From NCBI RefSeq assembly GCF_021484805.1, contig NZ_CP090557.1:2182001-2246000 (forward strand): a DNA stretch of 64,000 bases. The letters are read 5' to 3'. The notes under the pieces were generated by a model that did no database searches, had not been told where the DNA came from, and saw nothing but the letters and a program-made list of their open reading frames with translations. Below are positions 2,085 to 58,165 of this stretch, in pieces. Both the position numbers and the translations under genes were made by a program. This DNA is from Tellurirhabdus bombi (GTDB taxonomy: Bacteria; Bacteroidota; Bacteroidia; Cytophagales; Spirosomataceae). The stretch's first letter is position 1. Every line of letters starts with the position of its first letter.

Positions 2085-4490
2085 ATGTTACAGAATTACT
2101 TCAAAATTGCCTGGCGGAATTTAACGACGCACTGGAGCTATACGTCGCTGAATATCATTGGCTTGGCTGCTGGTATGGCAGGCGGATTGCTCATCTTTTT
2201 GTTTCTGCGTCATCATCTCAGTACGGACCGGCATCATGCCAAATTTGACCGGATTTTCCGGGTAGTAACGGACCTGCGCCTGGATGATGGTTCTGTAGAA
2301 CACTATCCAGAAGCGCCTTTGCCGATGGCGAAGACCCTCCGCACCGACTACCCGCAGGTGGAGCAGGCGGCTTACTTGAAGATGAACCGCGAGCTGACTG
2401 TTAGTCTCAAACGACCCGGCCAAACGGCACCCACCCGATTTCTGGAACATAAAAGCACCGCCCTGGTAGAGCCAAAACTATTTGATATTCTGGATTATCG
2501 CTGGCTACGGGGCAATCCGGCCACGGCGCTCCGCGAGCCAAACAGCGTTGTTTTGACTGAATCGTGGGCACGACGGTATTTTGGTAATACTGATCCAATG
2601 GGGCAAACGCTGAATTTAAACCACCTGACCGACGCCAAAGTGACTGGCATTCTGGCCGATCCGCCCAAAACGACCGACCTTGACATTCAGTTGTTTATCT
2701 CCATAAAAACCCTGCCCATCCTGATTCCCGACTATGAGTTAGACAGCTGGTGGGGACTTAGCTCCACCGACCGGGTATACGTAACACTCAAAAATCCGGC
2801 TTCGGTTGGAGCGATGCAGGCGGCCATTCCCGCCCTGCTGAAAAGACAGTTTGGCGACATGGCGCGCTATTACCAGTTTCAGTTTCAGCCACTTGCCGAC
2901 GTCCACTTCGACGTTCAGCGCGTGGTGGGTGGGGCCACGGCCATCCGGCCATCGTTGCTCTGGTCGCTGGGTTTGATTGGCTTATTTCTGGTGCTGACGG
3001 CCTGCATCAATTTCATCAATCTGACCACCGTTCAGGCATTGCGTCGGAGTAAGGAGGTAGGCATTCGCAAGACGCTCGGCAGCACGCGGGGACAATTGAT
3101 TCGGCAATTTTTTATAGAAACAACGCTCATTGTCTTAGTGGCCACCGTTCTGGCACTTTTAATGGTGAAAGTAAGCTTGCCTTTATTCAACCAGTGGTTA
3201 ACGATAAATTTGGGTCTAGGCCTTGAAAGTCAAGTAATTGGCTTTTTTTGTTTGCTGGTTGGATTGGTAATCGTGCTGGCGGGCGCTTATCCCGCCGCCG
3301 TGTTGTCGGGTTTTAGCCCCTGGGCCGCTTTGAAAGGGAAGCTGCCCGCCAAGGCAAGCGGTGGTTACTCCCTGCGCCAATCCCTGATTGTGGTGCAATT
3401 TGTTATCTGTCAGGCCCTGATTGTTGGGGCGCTAGTGGTAGCCACGCAGGTACGTTATCTGCGAACTGCCGAAATTGGTTTCAACAAGGACAATGTAGTG
3501 ATGGTAACTTTGCCCAATACCCAAAAGGCGGCTCGGGAAACGTTCAAAAATAGCCTGTTGGCTTATCCAGAGATCAAATCGATTAGTGCCAGCTACCGGC
3601 CTCCTTCGGCCCAGGTCATGAACGGAGGGTCTTTTAAACTGGGCAACAAGGCCGAGTGGGAAGCTTTTCCGGTGCGGGAGCGTTTGGCCGATGCCGACTA
3701 CCTGACTACCTACGGATTAAAACTGGTGGCAGGCCGCAACATCACGCCGAGCGACACGATTCGGGAGTATCTGGTTAACGAAGCTTTTCTAAAGAAAATA
3801 GGTATTCAGGATCCAAACAAAGTGCTGGGGACGAAAATGCAATACCACCTTTCGCCCGTTGCTGCGCCTATTGTGGGGGTCGTAAAAGACTTCCACCAGC
3901 GCTCGTTGCACGAAGAAATTGCACCTTGTATCATTGCCAGCCACGCGGCCATGTTCCAGCGGGTAGGGATTCGGGTGACGGGGCAAAATCCGTCGCAGAC
4001 CATCCAGCGCATTCGAACGACCTGGGAGCAGCTGTATCCCGATGAAGTCTTTGAATATGAGTACTTAGACAAGCAGTTAGCGCAATTTTATGAAGCAGAA
4101 AACTTGCTGTTTCGCCTGGTAAACACGTTTGCCGGTATTGCCATCCTGATCTGTTGCCTCGGGTTATACGGGCTTATTTCCTTCATTGTCGTGCAGCGGA
4201 CCAAAGAAATTGGCATTCGGAAAGTGCTGGGTGCTTCGGCGGCGGGCATTGTGGCCTTGCTTTCCCGAGATTTCCTCAAACTGGTGGTAATTGCTATAGC
4301 CATTGCCTCACCCATCGCGTGGTGGACGATGAGGCAATGGCTACAGGAATTTGCCTATAAAATTGACCTGGCTTGGTGGATGTTCGCGCTGTCTGGTTTG
4401 TTGGCAGTGTGTATTGCGCTGGCAACCGTCAGTGTCAAAAGCATCAAAGCAGCCCGCATGAATCCAGTGCAGAGTTTACGGGCTGATTAA
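2085..4490 (+). CDS. ABC transporter permease P2 (FtsX/MacB type)
   Basis: This 801-residue permease has the usual layout of the array: N-terminal amphipathic MLQNYFKIAWRNL, a first membrane helix at about 20-42, a periplasmic MacB-like domain, a first FtsX domain (SKEVGIRKTLGS near residue 323), a central helix near 427-450, a second periplasmic domain (VVKDFHQRSL) and a second FtsX domain (TKEIGIRKVLGAS near 706). The tail is NPVQSLRAD. The start is the ATG at 2085 because the conserved N-terminus begins exactly there. A run of more than 40 bases at its EIGIRKVLGAS segment is identical to P1. It converges with the M20 peptidase gene, whose stop is 4 bp away. The substrate is unknown. Confidence 0.94.
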   Translation: MLQNYFKIAWRNLTTHWSYTSLNIIGLAAGMAGGLLIFLFLRHHLSTDRHHAKFDRIFRVVTDLRLDDGSVEHYPEAPLPMAKTLRTDYPQVEQAAYLKMNRELTVSLKRPGQTAPTRFLEHKSTALVEPKLFDILDYRWLRGNPATALREPNSVVLTESWARRYFGNTDPMGQTLNLNHLTDAKVTGILADPPKTTDLDIQLFISIKTLPILIPDYELDSWWGLSSTDRVYVTLKNPASVGAMQAAIPALLKRQFGDMARYYQFQFQPLADVHFDVQRVVGGATAIRPSLLWSLGLIGLFLVLTACINFINLTTVQALRRSKEVGIRKTLGSTRGQLIRQFFIETTLIVLVATVLALLMVKVSLPLFNQWLTINLGLGLESQVIGFFCLLVGLVIVLAGAYPAAVLSGFSPWAALKGKLPAKASGGYSLRQSLIVVQFVICQALIVGALVVATQVRYLRTAEIGFNKDNVVMVTLPNTQKAARETFKNSLLAYPEIKSISASYRPPSAQVMNGGSFKLGNKAEWEAFPVRERLADADYLTTYGLKLVAGRNITPSDTIREYLVNEAFLKKIGIQDPNKVLGTKMQYHLSPVAAPIVGVVKDFHQRSLHEEIAPCIIASHAAMFQRVGIRVTGQNPSQTIQRIRTTWEQLYPDEVFEYEYLDKQLAQFYEAENLLFRLVNTFAGIAILICCLGLYGLISFIVVQRTKEIGIRKVLGASAAGIVALLSRDFLKLVVIAIAIASPIAWWTMRQWLQEFAYKIDLAWWMFALSGLLAVCIALATVSVKSIKAARMNPVQSLRAD

Positions 4491-13209: not shown

Positions 13210-13220
13210 CTATGCACACA

Positions 13221-13260
13221 GGCGGAGGTTCGGCAGTCGGCTGTATCTCCGCCTTTTATT
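13221..13260 (+). terminator. Rho-independent terminator after P5
   Basis: GGCGGAG (13221-13227) pairs with CTCCGCC (13247-13253) and is followed by TTTTATT. It directly follows the P3-P4-P5 operon and directly precedes the padR control sites. Confidence 0.75.
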
Positions 13261-13261
13261 C

Positions 13262-13300
13262 TGTTCAATACCGGACAGGATACCTGTACGATTTCGGACA
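13262..13300. promoter_or_regulatory. Twin activator sites upstream of padR-P6-P7
   Basis: Two 16-bp palindromes lie at 13262-13277 (TGTTC, AATACC, GGACA) and 13285-13300 (TGTAC, GATTTC, GGACA), with starts 23 bp apart. They match the sites before P3, P9 and P13 in the arms but not in the central six bases, as expected for a protein reading the arms. Confidence 0.72.
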
Positions 13301-13351
13301 AACTTTGTTACTCAACCTCTAAAATGATGCTTCTGACCAGTTTTTTGAAAT

Positions 13352-13366
13352 TGGCCGCGTATTTGA
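13352..13366 (+). promoter_or_regulatory. Sigma-54-like promoter for padR-P6-P7
   Basis: TGGCCGCGTATTTGA fits TGG-N8-TTG. Its -12 G at 13365 is about 72.5 bp from the centre of the nearer palindrome, the same geometry as at the other three loci. The predicted transcript start near 13377 leaves about 18 bases before the padR ATG. Confidence 0.6.
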
Positions 13367-13394
13367 TCAGCAAAAATAGAACTAATTAATAGCC

Positions 13395-13733
13395 ATGAAA
13401 CGCAGTTACTTAGGCGAGTTTGAGGAGATTGTTCTGTTGACGGTGGCGGTGCTGGAAGGACAGGCTTACGGCGTCGCGCTAACCCATGAGATTATTGAGC
13501 AGACGGGGCGTTCGGTTCGCCTGAACCAGATTCACTCCGCTTTGCAGCGGCTGGAAGAGAAAGGAATGGTTAAATCGGAGATGGGCGAACCAACGGCCGA
13601 ACGCGGTGGCCGGCGGAAACGACTGTTTACGGTAACGGCCTACGGTCGTCGGACATTGCAGGAAATTCAGGAAGTGCGCGTGACTTTGTGGAGCCGCCTC
13701 CTACATCCGTTCAAACCAGCCACCAGTCTATGA
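13395..13733 (+). CDS. PadR family transcriptional regulator
   Basis: This 112-residue protein has the PadR-type winged helix: EFEEIVLLTVAVLEGQAYGVALTHEI, then LNQIHSALQRLEEKGMV (recognition helix region) and the beta wing with RGGRRKRLFTVTAYGRR. Its stop codon overlaps the start of P6 in an ATGA arrangement (ATG 13730, TGA 13731-13733), so the two are translationally coupled. PadR genes next to permeases with an N-terminal prefix domain are a known pairing in Bacteroidota and Acidobacteriota. It probably represses or tunes its own operon in response to a small molecule; the ligand is unknown. Confidence 0.92.
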   Translation: MKRSYLGEFEEIVLLTVAVLEGQAYGVALTHEIIEQTGRSVRLNQIHSALQRLEEKGMVKSEMGEPTAERGGRRKRLFTVTAYGRRTLQEIQEVRVTLWSRLLHPFKPATSL

Positions 13734-16396
13734 GTCCCCAACCTCGTACTGGCGGGCCACCTCGCCTGGCCGACCGCCTGCTCGAACGCTTTTGCGATCC
13801 GTATACACTGGAAGAAATGCAGGGTGATCTGCATGAAGAATTCCAGTATCAGGTTCGGCGCGTGGGCGAACGGCAAGCGCGTTGGCGCTACTGGCGGGAT
13901 GTGCTGGGTTTCTTGAAGCTCCGGGCCAGACAATCGTTCACAAGAAAAAAACAACAAAATACTTACCCAACAACCCCATTAATCAGTCCTGATATGCTAC
14001 GGAATTATCTCAAAATCGCCCTGCGAAATCTGGTTAAACACAAGACGTATTCGGCTATTAATATTGCGGGCTTAGCCACGGGTATGGCCGTTGCAATGCT
14101 CATTGGCCTATGGATATGGGATGAGCTGTCGTTTAATACTTACCACAAAAATTACGACCGCATTGCTCAGGTATGGCAGCATCAGACCAGCAATGGGGAA
14201 GTCTTCACCGGTAAGGCCATACCTTTTCCACTGGGGAAAGAGCTTCAGACGAAATACGGGAGCAGTTTCCAATACGTCGTCATGTCGTCCTGGGAGGGTG
14301 AACACTTCCTGTCATTGGGCGAAAAAAAGATAACCAAAGAAGGCAGTTTTATGGATGTCGATGCGCCCCGGATGCTGACGTTGCACATGCTGAAGGGTTC
14401 GTACGACGGGCTCAAAGAGCCAAACTCTATTCTGCTTTCTGAAACGACTGCCCAAGCCCTTTTCGGCGACCGGGAGCCGCTGAATCAATTGATCAAGATT
14501 GACAATAAAATGGATGTGCGGGTTACGGGGGTTTACGAAGACGTGCCGCACAACGCCCAATACGGTAAGGTGAAGTTTATTGCGCCCTGGGAGCTTTATG
14601 TCGCCTCGGAGAAATGGATTCAGCGGGCGCGCGATAACAGCCATTGGGGTGATAACTCCTTTCAGCTTTTTGTCCAGATTGCTGACAATACAGATTATGA
14701 GTCGGTTAACAAACGCATTTTAAATGCTAAACTGAACAACGTTCCGGCTAACGAAAAAAAGTTCAAGGCAGCGATTGTCCTTAATCCCATGCGAGACTGG
14801 CGGTTGCGTTCGAACTGGGAAAATGGCGTAAAGACCGGCGGGATGATCGATTATGTTTGGTTATTTGGCTTTATCGGCCTTTTTGTGTTGCTGCTGGCCT
14901 GCATTAACTTCATGAATCTGAGCACCGCCCGCAGTGAGAAACGCGCCAAAGAGGTGGGCATTCGCAAAGCGGTTGGTTCCGTTCGAGGCCAGCTGGTGAA
15001 CCAGTTTTTTAGTGAGTCTTTTCTGGTGGTCTTTTTCGCTTTTGGGCTGGCTCTGCTGCTGGTGCTGCTCGTTCTGCCCTGGTTCAATCAGGTGGCTGAC
15101 AAACGGATTACGATGCTATGGACTAACCCGCTGTTCTGGACATTTGGGCTAGGATTTACGCTATTTACTGGTTTTGTGGCAGGTAGTTATCCGGCGCTTT
15201 ATCTGTCTTCTTTCCAACCAGTTAAGGTGCTGAAAGGAACCTTTCGGGCGGGGCGGTTTGCGGCTGTGCCTCGTAAAGTACTGGTCGTGGTGCAGTTTAC
15301 GGTTTCGTTAGCGCTGATTATTGGAACCATCATCATCTATAACCAGATTCAATATTCCAAAAACCGGCCCATCGGCTACAACCGGGACGGCCTGCTAATG
15401 ATTGAGATGAAGTCGCCGGAGTTTTACGGCAAGTTTGACCTACTGCGCACCGAACTCAAAAACGCTGGTGTCATTCAGGAGCTGGCCGAATCATCCAGCC
15501 CGATTACAGACGTATGGTCAAACAGTGGTGGGTTTCACTGGCAGGGCAAAGATCCCAATCTGGATACGGATTTTGGTACGGTCTGGGTCACGCACGAATT
15601 TGGGAAGACAGTGGGCTGGCAATTTAAAGAAGGTCGGGATTTTTCGCGGGAATTTACGTCTGATTCTTCGGCCATTGTCCTGAACGAAGCAGCGGTAAAG
15701 TTCATGAACATCAAGAATCCGGTGGGCACTGTCATTCGCTGGGGTAGCGGGGAGAACATGACGGAATATAAAATAATTGGCGTTATCAAAGACATGCTGA
15801 TGTCGTCGCCGTACGAACCCGTGAAGCAGACGATTTATTTGATGAGTTACCATAACGTCAACTGGATCAACATGAAGCTGAATCCGGCCAAAAGCGCCAA
15901 TGAGTGTCTGACAACCATCGAAGCCGCTTTCAAAAAACACATTCCGACGGCACCCTTCGACTATAAATTTGCCGATGAAGAGTTTGGGAAGAAGTTTGCT
16001 CACGAAGAGCGCATTGGCAAGCTAGCCACCTTCTTTGCGGGCTTAGCCATCTTTATCAGCTGCCTTGGTCTGTTTGGTCTGGCTTCCTTTGTCGCCGAAC
16101 AGCGCACGAAAGAAATTGGTATCCGCAAAGTGCTCGGTGCCAGTGTGCTGAATTTATGGAGCCTGTTATCAAAGGATTTTGTCATACTCGTGATCATCGC
16201 GTTCGTGATTGCTACGCCTACGGCCTGGTATTTTATGAGCCACTGGCTGGATCAATACGAGTACCGCTCTGAAATTTCGTGGTGGATATTCGTCGCCTCG
16301 GGCATTGGTACGTTAGTCGTGACCTTGTTGACGGTTAGTTTTCAGAGTATTAAAGCAGCGCTGATTAATCCGGTAAAATCACTTCGGTCCGAATAA
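13730..16396 (+). CDS. ABC transporter permease P6 with N-terminal permease prefix domain
   Basis: The product has 888 residues if the ATG overlapping the padR stop is used; the frame is open back to 13688 but coupling favours 13730. Residues about 8-65 form a cytoplasmic prefix (ADRLLERFCDPYTLEEMQGDLHEEF, then RYWRDVLGFLK) that resembles permease prefix domain 2. The standard permease starts at MLRNYLKIALRNL (internal ATG 13994). FtsX motifs are AKEVGIRKAVGS near residue 406 and TKEIGIRKVLGAS near 793. Unlike most of the array, the second periplasmic domain has IKDMLMSSPYEP where others have VKDFHxxSL. P7 follows after 32 bp and carries the same prefix. Confidence 0.93.
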   Translation: MSPQPRTGGPPRLADRLLERFCDPYTLEEMQGDLHEEFQYQVRRVGERQARWRYWRDVLGFLKLRARQSFTRKKQQNTYPTTPLISPDMLRNYLKIALRNLVKHKTYSAINIAGLATGMAVAMLIGLWIWDELSFNTYHKNYDRIAQVWQHQTSNGEVFTGKAIPFPLGKELQTKYGSSFQYVVMSSWEGEHFLSLGEKKITKEGSFMDVDAPRMLTLHMLKGSYDGLKEPNSILLSETTAQALFGDREPLNQLIKIDNKMDVRVTGVYEDVPHNAQYGKVKFIAPWELYVASEKWIQRARDNSHWGDNSFQLFVQIADNTDYESVNKRILNAKLNNVPANEKKFKAAIVLNPMRDWRLRSNWENGVKTGGMIDYVWLFGFIGLFVLLLACINFMNLSTARSEKRAKEVGIRKAVGSVRGQLVNQFFSESFLVVFFAFGLALLLVLLVLPWFNQVADKRITMLWTNPLFWTFGLGFTLFTGFVAGSYPALYLSSFQPVKVLKGTFRAGRFAAVPRKVLVVVQFTVSLALIIGTIIIYNQIQYSKNRPIGYNRDGLLMIEMKSPEFYGKFDLLRTELKNAGVIQELAESSSPITDVWSNSGGFHWQGKDPNLDTDFGTVWVTHEFGKTVGWQFKEGRDFSREFTSDSSAIVLNEAAVKFMNIKNPVGTVIRWGSGENMTEYKIIGVIKDMLMSSPYEPVKQTIYLMSYHNVNWINMKLNPAKSANECLTTIEAAFKKHIPTAPFDYKFADEEFGKKFAHEERIGKLATFFAGLAIFISCLGLFGLASFVAEQRTKEIGIRKVLGASVLNLWSLLSKDFVILVIIAFVIATPTAWYFMSHWLDQYEYRSEISWWIFVASGIGTLVVTLLTVSFQSIKAALINPVKSLRSE

Positions 16397-16428
16397 AGTC
16401 GGCGCGATCTTACTTAAAACCAAAAGCA

Positions 16429-19104
16429 ATGACGCCCAGACCCCAACCCGTCGAACCGCCCCGCCTGGCCGACCGCCTGCTGACCTTTTTTTGTGACTCG
16501 CAGCTGCTGGAAGAAATTCAGGGCGACCTGCACGAAGAATTTCAGTACCAGGTCCGGCGGGTGGGCGAACGGCAAGCGCGTTGGCGCTACTGGCGCGATG
16601 TGCTGGGGTTTCTGAAACCATTTGCTGGCCAACAAAAACGAGATGAGTACCCAAGACCTACTTTTTTCAGTTCTGATATGATACGGAATTACCTTAAGAT
16701 CGCTTTTCGTACCCTTCGCAAGCAGCAGGGTTTTACGTTCATCAACATTGTTGGGCTGGCTGTGGGGCTGGCCTGCTGCCTGCTGATTACGCTTTATGTG
16801 GTCGATGAACTGAGCTTCGACCGCTACCACGAAAAAGCGGCCCGGATTTACCGGATTAACTCCGATATCAAGTTCGGCGGAAACGATATGCACATGGCGG
16901 TGGCGCCTGACCCGATGGGGCCAACCTTGCTGAAGGATTATCCGCAGGTCGAGACTTTTGTGCGGTTGCACGGGCGGGGCACCTGGCTGGTTAAGCGGAC
17001 CGGGCAGCCTACTAATCGGCAAGAGAAAGACATCATCTTTGCCGATTCGACGCTCTTCGATGTGTTTACGCTGCCGCTGGTGGCGGGCAATCCTAAACAG
17101 GCACTGACCGAACCCAACACCGTTGTTATCAGTGAGTCGGCTGCCAAGCGCTATTTTGGCAACCAGAATCCGATGGGGCAGTCCCTGACGCTTGACAATC
17201 GCCTACCCTGCCGGGTAACGGGTGTAATGCAGGACATGCCCACCAACTCCCATTTCCGGACGGACTTTTTTGTGTGTATGCGAAGCGACGATTATCCCTG
17301 GGGAAACTGGTTAAGCCATAATCACCATACGTACGTTGTTTTGAAAGAAGGTGTTGATTATCAGAAATTCAACCAAAATTTTGAGACCATTCTCCAGAAG
17401 TACATGAGTCCGCAGGCGCAGCAGGTTTTCGGTGCGTCACTGGGCCAATTGCGCGCATCCGGCACACGCATAAAATACTCCCTGATTCCGCTGACGGACA
17501 TTCATTTGCGCTCCAAACAAAATATCGAATTGGCGCCGAACAGTGATATTCAGTATATCTACATTTTCTCGGCGGTGGCGATTTTCGTGCTGCTGATTGC
17601 CTGCATCAATTTTATGAATCTTTCGACGGCCCGGTCGTCCAATCGGGCCAAGGAAGTGGGCGTTCGGAAAGTGCTGGGATCGGTAAAAGGACAACTAATC
17701 GGGCAATTTATGACAGAATCGGTGCTAATGGCCACGCTGGCGATGGCCCTGGCCCTGCTTCTGGTCGCGCTGGTTCTGCCCTTTTTCAATGAACTTTCAA
17801 CCAAACAATTAACGCTACATAGTCTCATTGTTCCGCAATTTTTGCCTCTTTTGGGCAGCCTACCGCTGGTAGTTGGTTTTCTGGCGGGCATCTATCCGGC
17901 GTTTTTCCTTTCTTCGTTCCGGCCCATCAGCGTCTTAAAAGGCAAGGTAAATCTAGGCTTCAGAAGCGTCGGTTTACGCAGCGGTCTGGTGGTTTTTCAG
18001 TTCATGATGTCGGTAATTCTGATTGTAGGAACGATTGTGGTTTATCGGCAGATCAATTTTATTCAAACCACCAAACTAGGATTCAAACGCGATCAGGTTC
18101 TGACGATCAACGAAGCATATGCGCTGGGCAATCAGGTGCAGGCCTTCAGGGAGGAAGTTCTGAAACTGCCGGGTGTCGTCACGGGTTCAATCTCGGGCTA
18201 TCTGCCGGTCCCATCGGATCGAAGCGATAGCGGCATGTTCCCGGAAGGCCAGGTCGACCAGAGCAAAGCGGTTTCTTCGCAGCAGTGGGCAGTCGATGCG
18301 GACTACATTCCGACGCTGGGTATGGAACTAGCGCAGGGCCGAAATTTCTCGCGGGAATCCATTGCTGATTCTTCCGCCATTATTTTGAACGAAACGGCGG
18401 TTAAAACCTTTGGATTCAAAAATCCCATTGGCAAGCGGATCATGCGGATGACTGACAATGAGGGGAAGCAATTCAAAACGTATACGGTAATAGGTGTTGT
18501 GAAAAACTTCCATTTTGAGTCGCTGCGGCAGAATATCGGTTCGGTCGCTTTAATCATGGAACCTTCTCTGGGCGCGATTTCATTCCGGCTCAACGGGCCG
18601 AATATTCCGGGTCTGGTCAAGCAGGTAGAAGCGAAATGGCGGCAGATGGCACCGGGGATGCCGTTTGATTATTATTTTCTGGAGGATAGTTTCGACACCA
18701 TGTATCGCGCTGAGCAGCGGGTGGGGCAGATTGTGTTGGTGTTTTCCGTACTTGCCATTCTGATTGCCTGTCTGGGGTTGTTTGGGTTAGCCGCTTTCAT
18801 GGCCGAACAGCGCACGAAGGAAATTGGCGTTCGGAAAGTGCTGGGAGCCAGCACGGCCAGCATTGTTGGCTTGTTGTCGAAGGATTTTCTCAAACTCGTC
18901 CTGATCGCCATTCTTGTGGCAACGCCGATTGCCTGGTATGGGATGAACCAGTGGCTGAAGGATTTCGCCTATAAAATTGACGTACCGTGGTGGGTCTTTG
19001 CGCTGGCGGGGTTTGTTGCCGTGGCCATCGCATTTGTAACCGTGTCGTTCCAGTCCATCAAAGCCGCTTTTATGAATCCTGTGAAGAGCTTACGGGCAGA
19101 ATGA
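16429..19104 (+). CDS. ABC transporter permease P7 with N-terminal permease prefix domain
   Basis: This 891-residue permease is the second of the pair with a prefix domain. Residues about 9-64 (ADRLLTFFCDSQLLEEIQGDL, then RYWRDVLGFLKP) match the P6 prefix, including a 35-base identical DNA block, so the prefixes were duplicated or converted recently. The permease proper begins at MIRNYLKIAFRTL (internal ATG 16678). FtsX motifs are AKEVGVRKVLGS near residue 406 and TKEIGVRKVLGAS near 796; the second periplasmic domain has VVKNFHFESL. The tail is NPVKSLRAE. It is probably in one transcript with padR and P6. The cargo is unknown. Confidence 0.93.
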   Translation: MTPRPQPVEPPRLADRLLTFFCDSQLLEEIQGDLHEEFQYQVRRVGERQARWRYWRDVLGFLKPFAGQQKRDEYPRPTFFSSDMIRNYLKIAFRTLRKQQGFTFINIVGLAVGLACCLLITLYVVDELSFDRYHEKAARIYRINSDIKFGGNDMHMAVAPDPMGPTLLKDYPQVETFVRLHGRGTWLVKRTGQPTNRQEKDIIFADSTLFDVFTLPLVAGNPKQALTEPNTVVISESAAKRYFGNQNPMGQSLTLDNRLPCRVTGVMQDMPTNSHFRTDFFVCMRSDDYPWGNWLSHNHHTYVVLKEGVDYQKFNQNFETILQKYMSPQAQQVFGASLGQLRASGTRIKYSLIPLTDIHLRSKQNIELAPNSDIQYIYIFSAVAIFVLLIACINFMNLSTARSSNRAKEVGVRKVLGSVKGQLIGQFMTESVLMATLAMALALLLVALVLPFFNELSTKQLTLHSLIVPQFLPLLGSLPLVVGFLAGIYPAFFLSSFRPISVLKGKVNLGFRSVGLRSGLVVFQFMMSVILIVGTIVVYRQINFIQTTKLGFKRDQVLTINEAYALGNQVQAFREEVLKLPGVVTGSISGYLPVPSDRSDSGMFPEGQVDQSKAVSSQQWAVDADYIPTLGMELAQGRNFSRESIADSSAIILNETAVKTFGFKNPIGKRIMRMTDNEGKQFKTYTVIGVVKNFHFESLRQNIGSVALIMEPSLGAISFRLNGPNIPGLVKQVEAKWRQMAPGMPFDYYFLEDSFDTMYRAEQRVGQIVLVFSVLAILIACLGLFGLAAFMAEQRTKEIGVRKVLGASTASIVGLLSKDFLKLVLIAILVATPIAWYGMNQWLKDFAYKIDVPWWVFALAGFVAVAIAFVTVSFQSIKAAFMNPVKSLRAE

Positions 19105-19180: not shown

Positions 19181-20278
19181 ATGGAACGTTTCAGAAAATC
19201 CCTTTTTGCCTTTATTCTTTTAACACTGTCTTTCTCCGGGCTTCAGGCGCAAAAACCAGCGGTGGATTACTCGACCCGGCTGGCGCTGATTCAGAAAAAC
19301 ATTGATCAGGTTTTCTATATGCCCCAAACAGGGCTGTATCTGGAAACCAATGATCCGGCGCATAACGAAAAACCAAATTCGTACCTGTGGCCTTTGTGCG
19401 CGCTGTATCAGGCGACCAACGAACGGGAAGTGCTGGAACCGTCCAAAAACTACATGGCTCCGGTCAGGAAGGCCATCGAACAGTACCACAACACGGTTCC
19501 GCCGGTTCCTGGTTATCAGGCTTATATCCGAAAAGCAGGCGTGGACACGCGGTTTTACGACGATAATCAGTGGATTGGTATTACCGCGCTGGATGCCTAT
19601 AATCGGACGCAAAAGAAAGATTACCTAACGCTCGGCGAGGATATTTACCGCTTTATGATGGTTGGCTACGACCAGGCTGCCGGGGGCGGAATCTACTGGA
19701 AAGAAGACGACAAAACCACTAAAAACACCTGCTCGAATGGCCCGGGCATTTTGGTTGCGCTAGAATTGTACCGCATCACCAAACAGAAAGCTTATCTGGA
19801 TAAGGCCGTGCTATTGTACGATTGGACTAACAAACACCTGCTTGCGCCGGAAGGCGTTTATTACGATGCAATCAAGTTGCCCAGCCTACGCATCGATTCG
19901 GCGCGGTACACCTACAACACCGGCACCATGCTACAGGCCAACGCGCTGTTGTACAAACTGACCAAAAAACAAGCCTATCTAACCGAGGCGCAGCGGTTGG
20001 CAAAAACTGCCAAAGCCTACTTTTACCGGAACAATAAACTGCCTCATGACTACTGGTTTAATGCCGTATTGTTGCGGGGCTATCTGGAATTATACAGCAT
20101 CGACAAGGACAAGAGCCGCTTGCAGTTTTTCATCGATGATGCCGAGCGTATCTGGCAAGAGGAACGCGATGCGGCCACCAACCTGCTTGGTCGGCACACC
20201 TGGAAAACCCTGATCGATCAGGCGGCCATGCTGGAAATCTACGCCCGGCTGGAGCTGCTACAGAACCGGAAGAAGTAA
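19181..20278 (+). CDS. Secreted glycoside hydrolase family 76-like protein (alpha-1,6-mannanase type)
   Basis: This 365-residue protein has a signal peptide (MERFRKSLFAFILLTLSFSGLQAQ) and an alpha/alpha-barrel-like pattern of repeated helical segments. The segment RFYDDNQWIGITALDAY carries an Asp-Asp pair (residues 127-128), which is the catalytic pair expected for GH76 endo-alpha-1,6-mannanases. YNTGTMLQANALLYKLTKKQAYL is another family-like segment. It probably acts on mannan-type polysaccharide outside the cytoplasm. It sits between P7 (76 bp upstream) and P8 (74 bp downstream) on the same strand without an evident terminator, so cotranscription is possible. There is no SusC/SusD pair nearby, so it is not in a standard polysaccharide utilisation locus. 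Confidence 0.85.
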   Translation: MERFRKSLFAFILLTLSFSGLQAQKPAVDYSTRLALIQKNIDQVFYMPQTGLYLETNDPAHNEKPNSYLWPLCALYQATNEREVLEPSKNYMAPVRKAIEQYHNTVPPVPGYQAYIRKAGVDTRFYDDNQWIGITALDAYNRTQKKDYLTLGEDIYRFMMVGYDQAAGGGIYWKEDDKTTKNTCSNGPGILVALELYRITKQKAYLDKAVLLYDWTNKHLLAPEGVYYDAIKLPSLRIDSARYTYNTGTMLQANALLYKLTKKQAYLTEAQRLAKTAKAYFYRNNKLPHDYWFNAVLLRGYLELYSIDKDKSRLQFFIDDAERIWQEERDAATNLLGRHTWKTLIDQAAMLEIYARLELLQNRKK

Positions 20279-57130: not shown

Positions 57131-58165
57131 TTACTGGTTTACATACACGTTGCCGCTTCCGGCTGAAATCTGAACCGGAACGCCACCACCGTTAAGGCGG
57201 CCCCGAACATGGTCTTTTTCCATAGTACCATCGAAGCTACGGAGGGCGCCAGTTGCTACGCGGTTGCCGCGCAGTTCAATGTCCATGCCTTTATCCATTG
57301 GTAAGTTCACCCGAACGCTGCCCGCTGAAGTAGATAACCGCAGAAATTCGCCCAGTTTCCGAATGTCGGCGTCAATACCGCCCGCGCTGGTTTCTGCCCG
57401 AATGCTGCCCGTAATGTCGCGGAGGCGAATGCTACCACCGGATGTGCTGGCCATCAGTTCGCCATCGGCGCCATCCACGTTGACGCTTCCGCCGCTCGTA
57501 CGAGCCTGAATCATGCCTTTCAAATCTTGCAGATGGATGCTGCCTCCGCTGGTTTTCAGGCGCAGATCTCCGCTCGAGTTTTTGGCGTGGATAGAGCCGC
57601 CGCTGGTGGTTAGCTCGATGTCTTTGCGGCAATCGTCGAGATGGATACTTCCTCCTGAAGTCCGGCCCCGAACGGTTCCTTCTATGTCTACCAGGTGCAG
57701 GCTGCCGCCGCTGGTCTGGAAATTCTGCTGCCCATTGAGGTGGGAAATGCGGATGCTACCACCACTGGTTTTCAGGTCAGTCGCTATGGTGCGGGGAACA
57801 AATACCTTGAAGGCAATGCTTACAGAACGCTTCCAGTCCTGATTGTTTTGATGCCGTTTGGCTGTGGCGACAACGGTGTTGCCTTCGGTAGTAATTGAAA
57901 TGTCGTAGTCTCTTAATCGATCTTCAAGCTCAGACTGGCTAAGCCGGTCGTTACCGTTGTTGGCACGAACGTACATCTCAACTTTAGCACCGCTATTTTG
58001 GCTGCCTTCTACGGTAATGCTGCCGCCCGAAGTCTGAACGCGGACGTTATTATAGTTACCGGAGAAATTTTGCGTTTTATAAGGCTGCTCGTTCGACGAC
58101 TGGGCGAAGGCACCGCTGGCAGCAAATACGGCCGTTGCGAGAAAGGTGTTTTGGAGAAATTTCAT
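57131..58165 (-). CDS. Secreted DUF4097-like protein with 18-residue TSGGSI repeats
   Basis: This 344-residue protein has a signal peptide (MKFLQNTFLATAVFAASGAFAQ). From about residue 45, and densely from 130 to 280, it repeats an 18-residue unit beginning TSGGS(I/L/V) followed by a beta strand, with about ten copies (for example TSGGSLHLVDIEGTVRGR and TSGGSIHLQDLKGMIQAR). The later copies drift to TSAGGI and TSAGSV. Such repeats fit a beta-solenoid as in DUF4097 putative adhesins. It is probably surface or periplasmic. It lies upstream of the P13 control region on the same strand, separated by a palindromic terminator, so it is not in the P13 operon. Confidence 0.9.
   Translation of the reverse strand: MKFLQNTFLATAVFAASGAFAQSSNEQPYKTQNFSGNYNNVRVQTSGGSITVEGSQNSGAKVEMYVRANNGNDRLSQSELEDRLRDYDISITTEGNTVVATAKRHQNNQDWKRSVSIAFKVFVPRTIATDLKTSGGSIRISHLNGQQNFQTSGGSLHLVDIEGTVRGRTSGGSIHLDDCRKDIELTTSGGSIHAKNSSGDLRLKTSGGSIHLQDLKGMIQARTSGGSVNVDGADGELMASTSGGSIRLRDITGSIRAETSAGGIDADIRKLGEFLRLSTSAGSVRVNLPMDKGMDIELRGNRVATGALRSFDGTMEKDHVRGRLNGGGVPVQISAGSGNVYVNQ

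Follow-up and report, generated by a model that had tools for sequence, protein, structure and literature searches.

Comparative analysis of a PadR-headed permease operon in Tellurirhabdus bombi suggests an activator-driven, self-repressed module with PadR-matched permease prefixes

What controls a permease operon that opens with its own PadR-type regulator gene, and what is the N-terminal prefix domain of its permeases for? The locus lies in the window, that is, the whole stretch of 64,000 nucleotides of the T. bombi contig NZ_CP090557.1 that was analysed, and comprises three genes on the + strand: padR (13395-13733), which the open reading frame list, Pfam, predicted structure and Foldseek identify as coding for a 112 aa winged-helix repressor, and two FtsX/MacB-type permease genes with a prefix, P6 (13730-16396), ATGA-coupled to padR, and P7 (16429-19104), assigned from the open reading frame list and profile matches. 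The padR product belongs to PadR family PF03551 (38.5 bits, cut-off 27); its AlphaFold model has a pLDDT of 89, with PadR structures as best Foldseek matches, and helices are predicted at residues 8-20, 26-37, 43-55 and 82-103. The whole genome (4.94 Mb, one contig) holds four PadR matches, three of them above cut-off, and the closest named-genome relatives of this PadR come from Spirosoma, Runella, Dyadobacter and Larkinella. The padR 3′ end reads CTATGA, its ATG at 13730 being in frame with P6 and within the padR end at 13733, which confirms the ATGA overlap of the original prediction. P6 could also start in frame at a GTG (13688); an in-frame ATGA overlap is present in 94 of 240 related operons, the window counted in.

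TIGR03433 and TIGR03434 genes adjoin in Acidobacteria. The prefixes of P6 and P7 match NF038404 above its cut-off, but the proteins described here score below the cut-offs of these two models: PadR reaches 35.9 bits with padR_acidobact TIGR03433 (curated cut-off 101.8), and P6 and P7 reach 283.5 and 333.7 bits with the ADOP permease model TIGR03434 (cut-off 622.3). PADLOC models returned no match to PadR, P6 or P7 at E 0.01, and neither Rfam families nor tRNA genes were found in the window. Upstream of the operon, an imperfect inverted repeat (13220-13254, no strand assigned; 15-nt arms, 80% complementary, 5-nt loop) is perhaps the end of the preceding transcript. Downstream, a glycoside hydrolase family 76 gene (19181-20278) lies between P7 and the next permease gene.

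The promoter region carries two activator-type sites, TGTTCAATACCGGACA (13262-13277, + strand) and TGTACGATTTCGGACA (13285-13300, + strand), spaced 23 bp start-to-start, and a sigma-54-type promoter TTGGCC-N5-TTTG (13351-13365). Its -24 element TTGGCC (13351-13356, + strand), taken from the window row of the promoter alignment, has C at the sixth base, where relatives mostly have A; the -12 element TTTG (13362-13365, + strand) is supported by the alignment and the information profile. Single sites are not enriched either in the window (29 with up to 3 mismatches vs 24.5 expected) or in the genome (152 with up to 2 mismatches vs 201 for a reversed-pattern control). The twin layout is conserved: considering the 239 operons for which 200 bp or more of upstream sequence was available (one with less was dropped), twin pairing occurs in 195 upstream regions and in none after one shuffle each, a sigma-54-like promoter is found by score in 216 and in 24 after one shuffle each, and 192 operons have both, bearing out the twin sites and sigma-54-like promoter proposed ahead of this operon. 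No such promoter was found by score in 22 of 145 operons, including all 14 of PadR clades 1 and 5. The -24 element follows the first twin site at distances that fall into two clusters, 88-91 and 98-102 bp, which differ by about one helical turn; in the window the distance is 89 bp.

An activator with Response_reg, Sigma54_activat and HTH_8 domains is encoded in the genome beside another twin site. Its gene and that of a histidine kinase lie about 36 kb from padR and diverge from genes for an HlyD protein, an ABC ATPase and permeases. The ATPase of the original prediction is not encoded in the padR operon, this ABC ATPase gene belonging to a different one. With -24/-12 elements, paired upstream sites and a REC-AAA-HTH activator in the same genome, the promoter conforms to the sigma-54 enhancer type, and we infer that this response regulator binds the twin sites. 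Twin sites and sigma-54-type promoters at genome positions 854855 and 2410553 precede genes not for permeases but for short secreted-looking proteins, of which one bears a Por secretion tail; the regulon of the activator may accordingly extend beyond transport. A Toastrack-type DUF4097 protein (57131-58165 of the window, - strand), a domain that the PSP paper ties to HAAS-PadR systems, is encoded near twin-site-controlled permeases.

The original prediction advised looking for a PadR operator between 13300 and 13395, and this interval contains a strong candidate: the 26-bp imperfect dyad ATTTGATCAGCAAAAATAGAACTAAT (13361-13386, + strand), centred between 13373 and 13374, which overlaps the -12 element and the predicted start site and co-varies with the putative PadR recognition helix. 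In a profile aligned on the -24 element (86 operons), information is high at GGC and TTTG and carries on as far as a TAAT located 21 bases downstream of the -12 G, dropping almost to zero within two further bases. A dyad scan places the best symmetry centre at 13373/13374 (0.496 complementary; next centre 0.425); the consensus is symmetric, and there is no compensatory excess in the dyad (0.496 observed vs 0.492 from column composition). PadR distances correlate with element distances at 0.54, spacers giving 0.05-0.18. Mutual information with the element (122 operons) peaks at PadR Q45, H31, I34, N44, S48, L43 and A49, with z values as high as 12.5, against at most 4.8 at promoter-spacer positions. 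The strongest coupling in a joint PadR-prefix-promoter global model (216 operons) is between Q45 and base 18, a pair that also ranks first of 2204 tests for same-branch changes on the tree (5 vs 0.64 expected), followed by V41-17 and A49-26, N44-17 ranking sixth. The profile, the mutual information and the global model drew on the operons with an anchored promoter, 86 of 145, 122 of 145 and 216 of 240, respectively. Q45 falls within the predicted helix 43-55, the third helix, and in PadR structures alpha 3 is named the recognition helix (PMC3506622).

Scored with a matrix built from these same promoters, window included, the window element reaches 22.7, PadR operons average 16.6 and shuffled elements reach at most 13.6; of the 216 elements, 207 have positive scores. 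In two Emticicia operons that lack a prefix, the promoter is kept and the element is not (-14.3 and -3.5), while two operons whose PadR is about 76-79% identical to theirs score 23.2. Two loci with no prefix permease next to PadR, L176 and L051, have moderate elements (9.3 and 7.0). It could be argued that the 26-bp element is an extended sigma-54 core or start-region signal instead of an operator, given that it is conserved and touches the -12 element. The element, however, varies by PadR clade and is coupled to residues of the recognition helix. Scores of -10 to -55 were obtained for nine further twin-site promoters in the genome, some of which may be misanchored because their core scores are low. 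In addition, a similar 26-bp dyad, ATTTG...CAAAT, stands without a sigma-54 -24 element just upstream of position 4001 before the PadR genes of L149 and L156, where it was seen by eye and could not be placed by the operator score. We regard a core signal as very improbable and favour a PadR operator. In a PadR clade without the sigma-54 layout (five loci), TTTTACATACA boxes occur upstream of padR and are perhaps that clade's own operator on another promoter type. Promoter layout, operator co-variation and scores thus lend comparative sequence support to the dual control that had been suggested, by an activator and by the operon's own PadR.

Turning to the prefix, P6 residues 10-63 (13757-13918, + strand) and P7 residues 10-70 (16456-16638, + strand) belong to NCBIfam permease prefix domain 2 (NF038404), with 90.2 and 98.9 bits against a curated cut-off of 35. 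A genome-wide NF038404 search matched these two prefixes only, so the earlier statement that P6 and P7 share a domain missing from all other permeases holds. In the MacB topology, an N-terminal extension ahead of the first membrane helix is expected to be cytoplasmic. The predicted structure of the P7 prefix has three helices (12-21, 24-44 and 47-66; pLDDT 70, pTM 0.49) and matched no PDB structure at E < 0.001; by sequence, nothing significant was found in the PDB. An acidic DNA mimic is ruled out by the median net charge of +4 (329 prefixes).

The arrangement resembles the HAAS-PadR dyad, where a stand-alone PadR likewise adjoins a membrane protein, in that case one with an N-terminal three-helix domain (PMC11237479). 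That proposal was derived from gene neighbourhoods together with domain analysis; it includes fusions of HAAS to FtsX-like/MacB permeases and offers an alternative to two-component signalling (PMC11237479). The prefix, though, is not recognised as HAAS: only 1 of 59 prefixes gave a Pfam match, at a non-significant E of 0.013; hhalign profile comparison, against only 13 Bacteroidota HAAS rows, returned a probability of 1.4% and E 0.038; and the GxP motif of HAAS helix 3, counted as G.P past position 35 of the matched stretch, occurs in 13 of 329 prefixes. HAAS comparison rows in this last count ended before the motif (2 of 13 positive), the longer translations having it, by eye, in 12 of 13. 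We therefore liken the prefix to the dyad without filing it under HAAS. Further departures from the published dyad, as far as its description was consulted, are the sigma-54-type PadR promoter with an overlapping candidate operator and the operon-specific prefixes. By analogy, the prefix-PadR pair may work like the HAAS-PadR signalling pair. As a positive control for the published dyad, a PadR-like frame lies immediately upstream of 11 of 15 HAAS matches in Bacteroidota.

The prefix is present in at least 17 of 59 relatives searched. Across the 75 regions fetched around the matches listed, plus the window, a PadR gene heads 78 of 88 co-directional prefix runs, coupling the prefix to a stand-alone PadR gene as in the HAAS dyad. 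Runs hold one to seven permeases, with a single prefix permease behind PadR in 47 of 88, some of these cut by region ends. Ten runs lack a PadR head: five are at or beside region or contig ends (two of them in one region), one is no more than a short remnant, in L051 the PadR gene lies on the opposite strand, and three have no PadR directly ahead. Both search profiles, PadR and prefix, derive from loci selected by their prefix, and a fairer count starts from PadR: in the best 80 named-genome loci by likeness to the query, picked without regard to the prefix, a prefix permease directly follows the matched PadR in 75 (76 if any PadR of the locus is accepted). The exceptions are two Emticicia loci with prefix-less permeases, the Larkinella loci L149 and L156, where a different gene type comes next, and L176. 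In an enlarged set, 265 of 272 PadR-headed runs show the pairing, duplicates counted, some genes appearing twice because named and unnamed loci overlap in genomes. Among family genomes, all 14 prefix-positive ones in the matches listed are also PadR-positive, as are 119 of 222 overall.

Within an operon, the prefixes resemble each other far more than the permease bodies do. Same-operon permease pairs have 78% prefix and 39% body identity (89 pairs, 29 operons), and pairs from different operons of one genome 42% and 35% (677 pairs); P6 and P7 follow with 72% and 38%. At body identities of 0.35-0.40, prefix identity is 0.80 within and 0.43 between operons. Of 63 multi-permease operons, one gave no value; in the other 62, prefixes are more alike within the operon than they are, on average, to those of other operons, and in 36 of the 63 they are closer to each other than to the best match in any other locus. 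Third bases of fourfold codons behave in the same way, with identities within operons of 0.68 for prefixes and 0.35 for bodies, and between operons of 0.38 and 0.32. The excess begins with the prefix and ends some 85-90 residues later. Bodies of 600 aa or less were dropped (189 of 234 permeases kept), as were operons identical in PadR and prefix (145 of 156 kept; 240 of 265 in the enlarged set). Plain tandem duplication was rejected as the source, as it would not make the prefix young where the body is old; the probable cause is that the prefix segment has undergone conversion or recombination. A limited literature search returned no report of such a tag being homogenised across an operon on divergent transporters, nothing that looks related for gene conversion with permease and PadR, and no occurrence of the phrase 'permease prefix domain'.

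Near-identical prefixes within an operon are also what a pairing tag would show, and the cytoplasmic position expected from the MacB topology would suit a module that docks an ABC ATPase or pairs the operon's permeases, with PadR following passively. Such a module is nonetheless unlikely, given the many runs with a single prefix permease behind PadR and the prefix-less state of the genome's other permeases; many permeases of the window lack the prefix, so ATPase docking is presumably no general permease need. Moreover, across operons the prefix correlates with PadR and not with the body. In 138 operons, PadR-prefix distances correlate at r 0.60 (largest of 999 shuffles 0.09), PadR-body at 0.29 and the prefix with its own body at 0.25, this last falling to a partial correlation of 0.10 given PadR. 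For the second permease (62 operons) PadR-prefix r is 0.67, and PadR against the intervening first body gives 0.15.

These figures could also arise from linkage only, PadR and prefix being co-inherited neighbours without contact and the prefix having an unrelated role, for example in membrane insertion. Neighbouring DNA is inherited jointly, and within single genomes (200 operon pairs) the PadR-prefix r of 0.298 is surpassed by the largest shuffle (0.346) and does not exceed that of PadR-body (0.320). In 100 disjoint pairs, sister-pair contrasts pick out no contact, with no excess for helix-turn-helix residues and prefix (0.001) or operator (-0.011); since neither gave an excess, the test is weak for both alike. 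Against linkage, the second permease's prefix tracks PadR across an intervening body that does not, and same-operon prefixes match each other where bodies do not. We consider linkage only improbable, if somewhat less so than the ATPase or pairing module, and retain the prefix as a PadR partner. Residue-level tests of that partnership are mixed. Normalised mutual information of PadR is alike for prefix columns (mean 0.074) and body columns (0.070), and same-branch PadR-prefix changes fall short of expectation on average (mean z -0.62, 4788 tests). The leading pairs are A49-F61 and N44-F61 (4 vs 0.5 expected each) and N44-E37 (5 vs 0.9), and H31-Y40 has 10 vs 4.1 expected; the PadR residues in these top pairs are those of the putative operator-reading face.

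Taken together, we think it probable that the operon is an activator-driven, self-repressed transporter module whose prefix is a partner of its own PadR. A two-component response regulator of the sigma-54 enhancer class would bind the twin sites and drive the promoter, as the conserved layout suggests, and PadR would bind the 26-bp dyad over the -12/start region and block it, in line with the co-variation. The prefix of each permease, predicted to form three helices, would be the specific partner of the operon's PadR, kept matched to it and copied among the permease genes, presumably by recombination. With roughly even chances, the prefix would tether or sequester PadR, so that permease amount or state sets the free repressor. 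From near-exclusive pairing, operon-specific prefixes and co-evolution, the prefix is most likely PadR's partner module; the original prediction that it docks PadR stands to that extent, the residue-level part being divided. A stricter version takes the prefix for an operon-specific address tag, carried by gene conversion onto unrelated permease bodies, that docks the PadR DNA-reading helix and competes with the operator for that one face; this version we hold to be doubtful, though less so than linkage only.

Parts of this scheme have precedents. Listeria LltR is a PadR repressor that mainly regulates its own operon, where a DUF1700 membrane protein gene follows as a permease gene does here; an FtsX permease or sigma-54 promoter is not mentioned in the consulted parts of that report (PMC6624303). 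LmrR and other small PadR repressors are likewise small winged-helix proteins controlling transporters through inverted-repeat operators (ATGT/ACAT, 8-10 nt apart), but LmrR responds to drugs, where we propose a protein partner at a sigma-54-type promoter (PMC3506622, PMC4235314). Sigma-54 regulation of FtsX-like COG0577 permeases, Bacteroidia included, was reported in 2025, the consulted text making no mention of a PadR layer (PMC12316311).

With a candidate operator mapped, specificity residues named, and 240 distinct PadR-prefix sets plus possible loss cases available from nature, prefix-PadR recognition can be tested directly through swaps of cognate and non-cognate partners. The P6 and P7 transporters may thus help control their own production and, if the address-tag reading is true, membrane-inserted transporters would count themselves and release their own activator-driven promoter.
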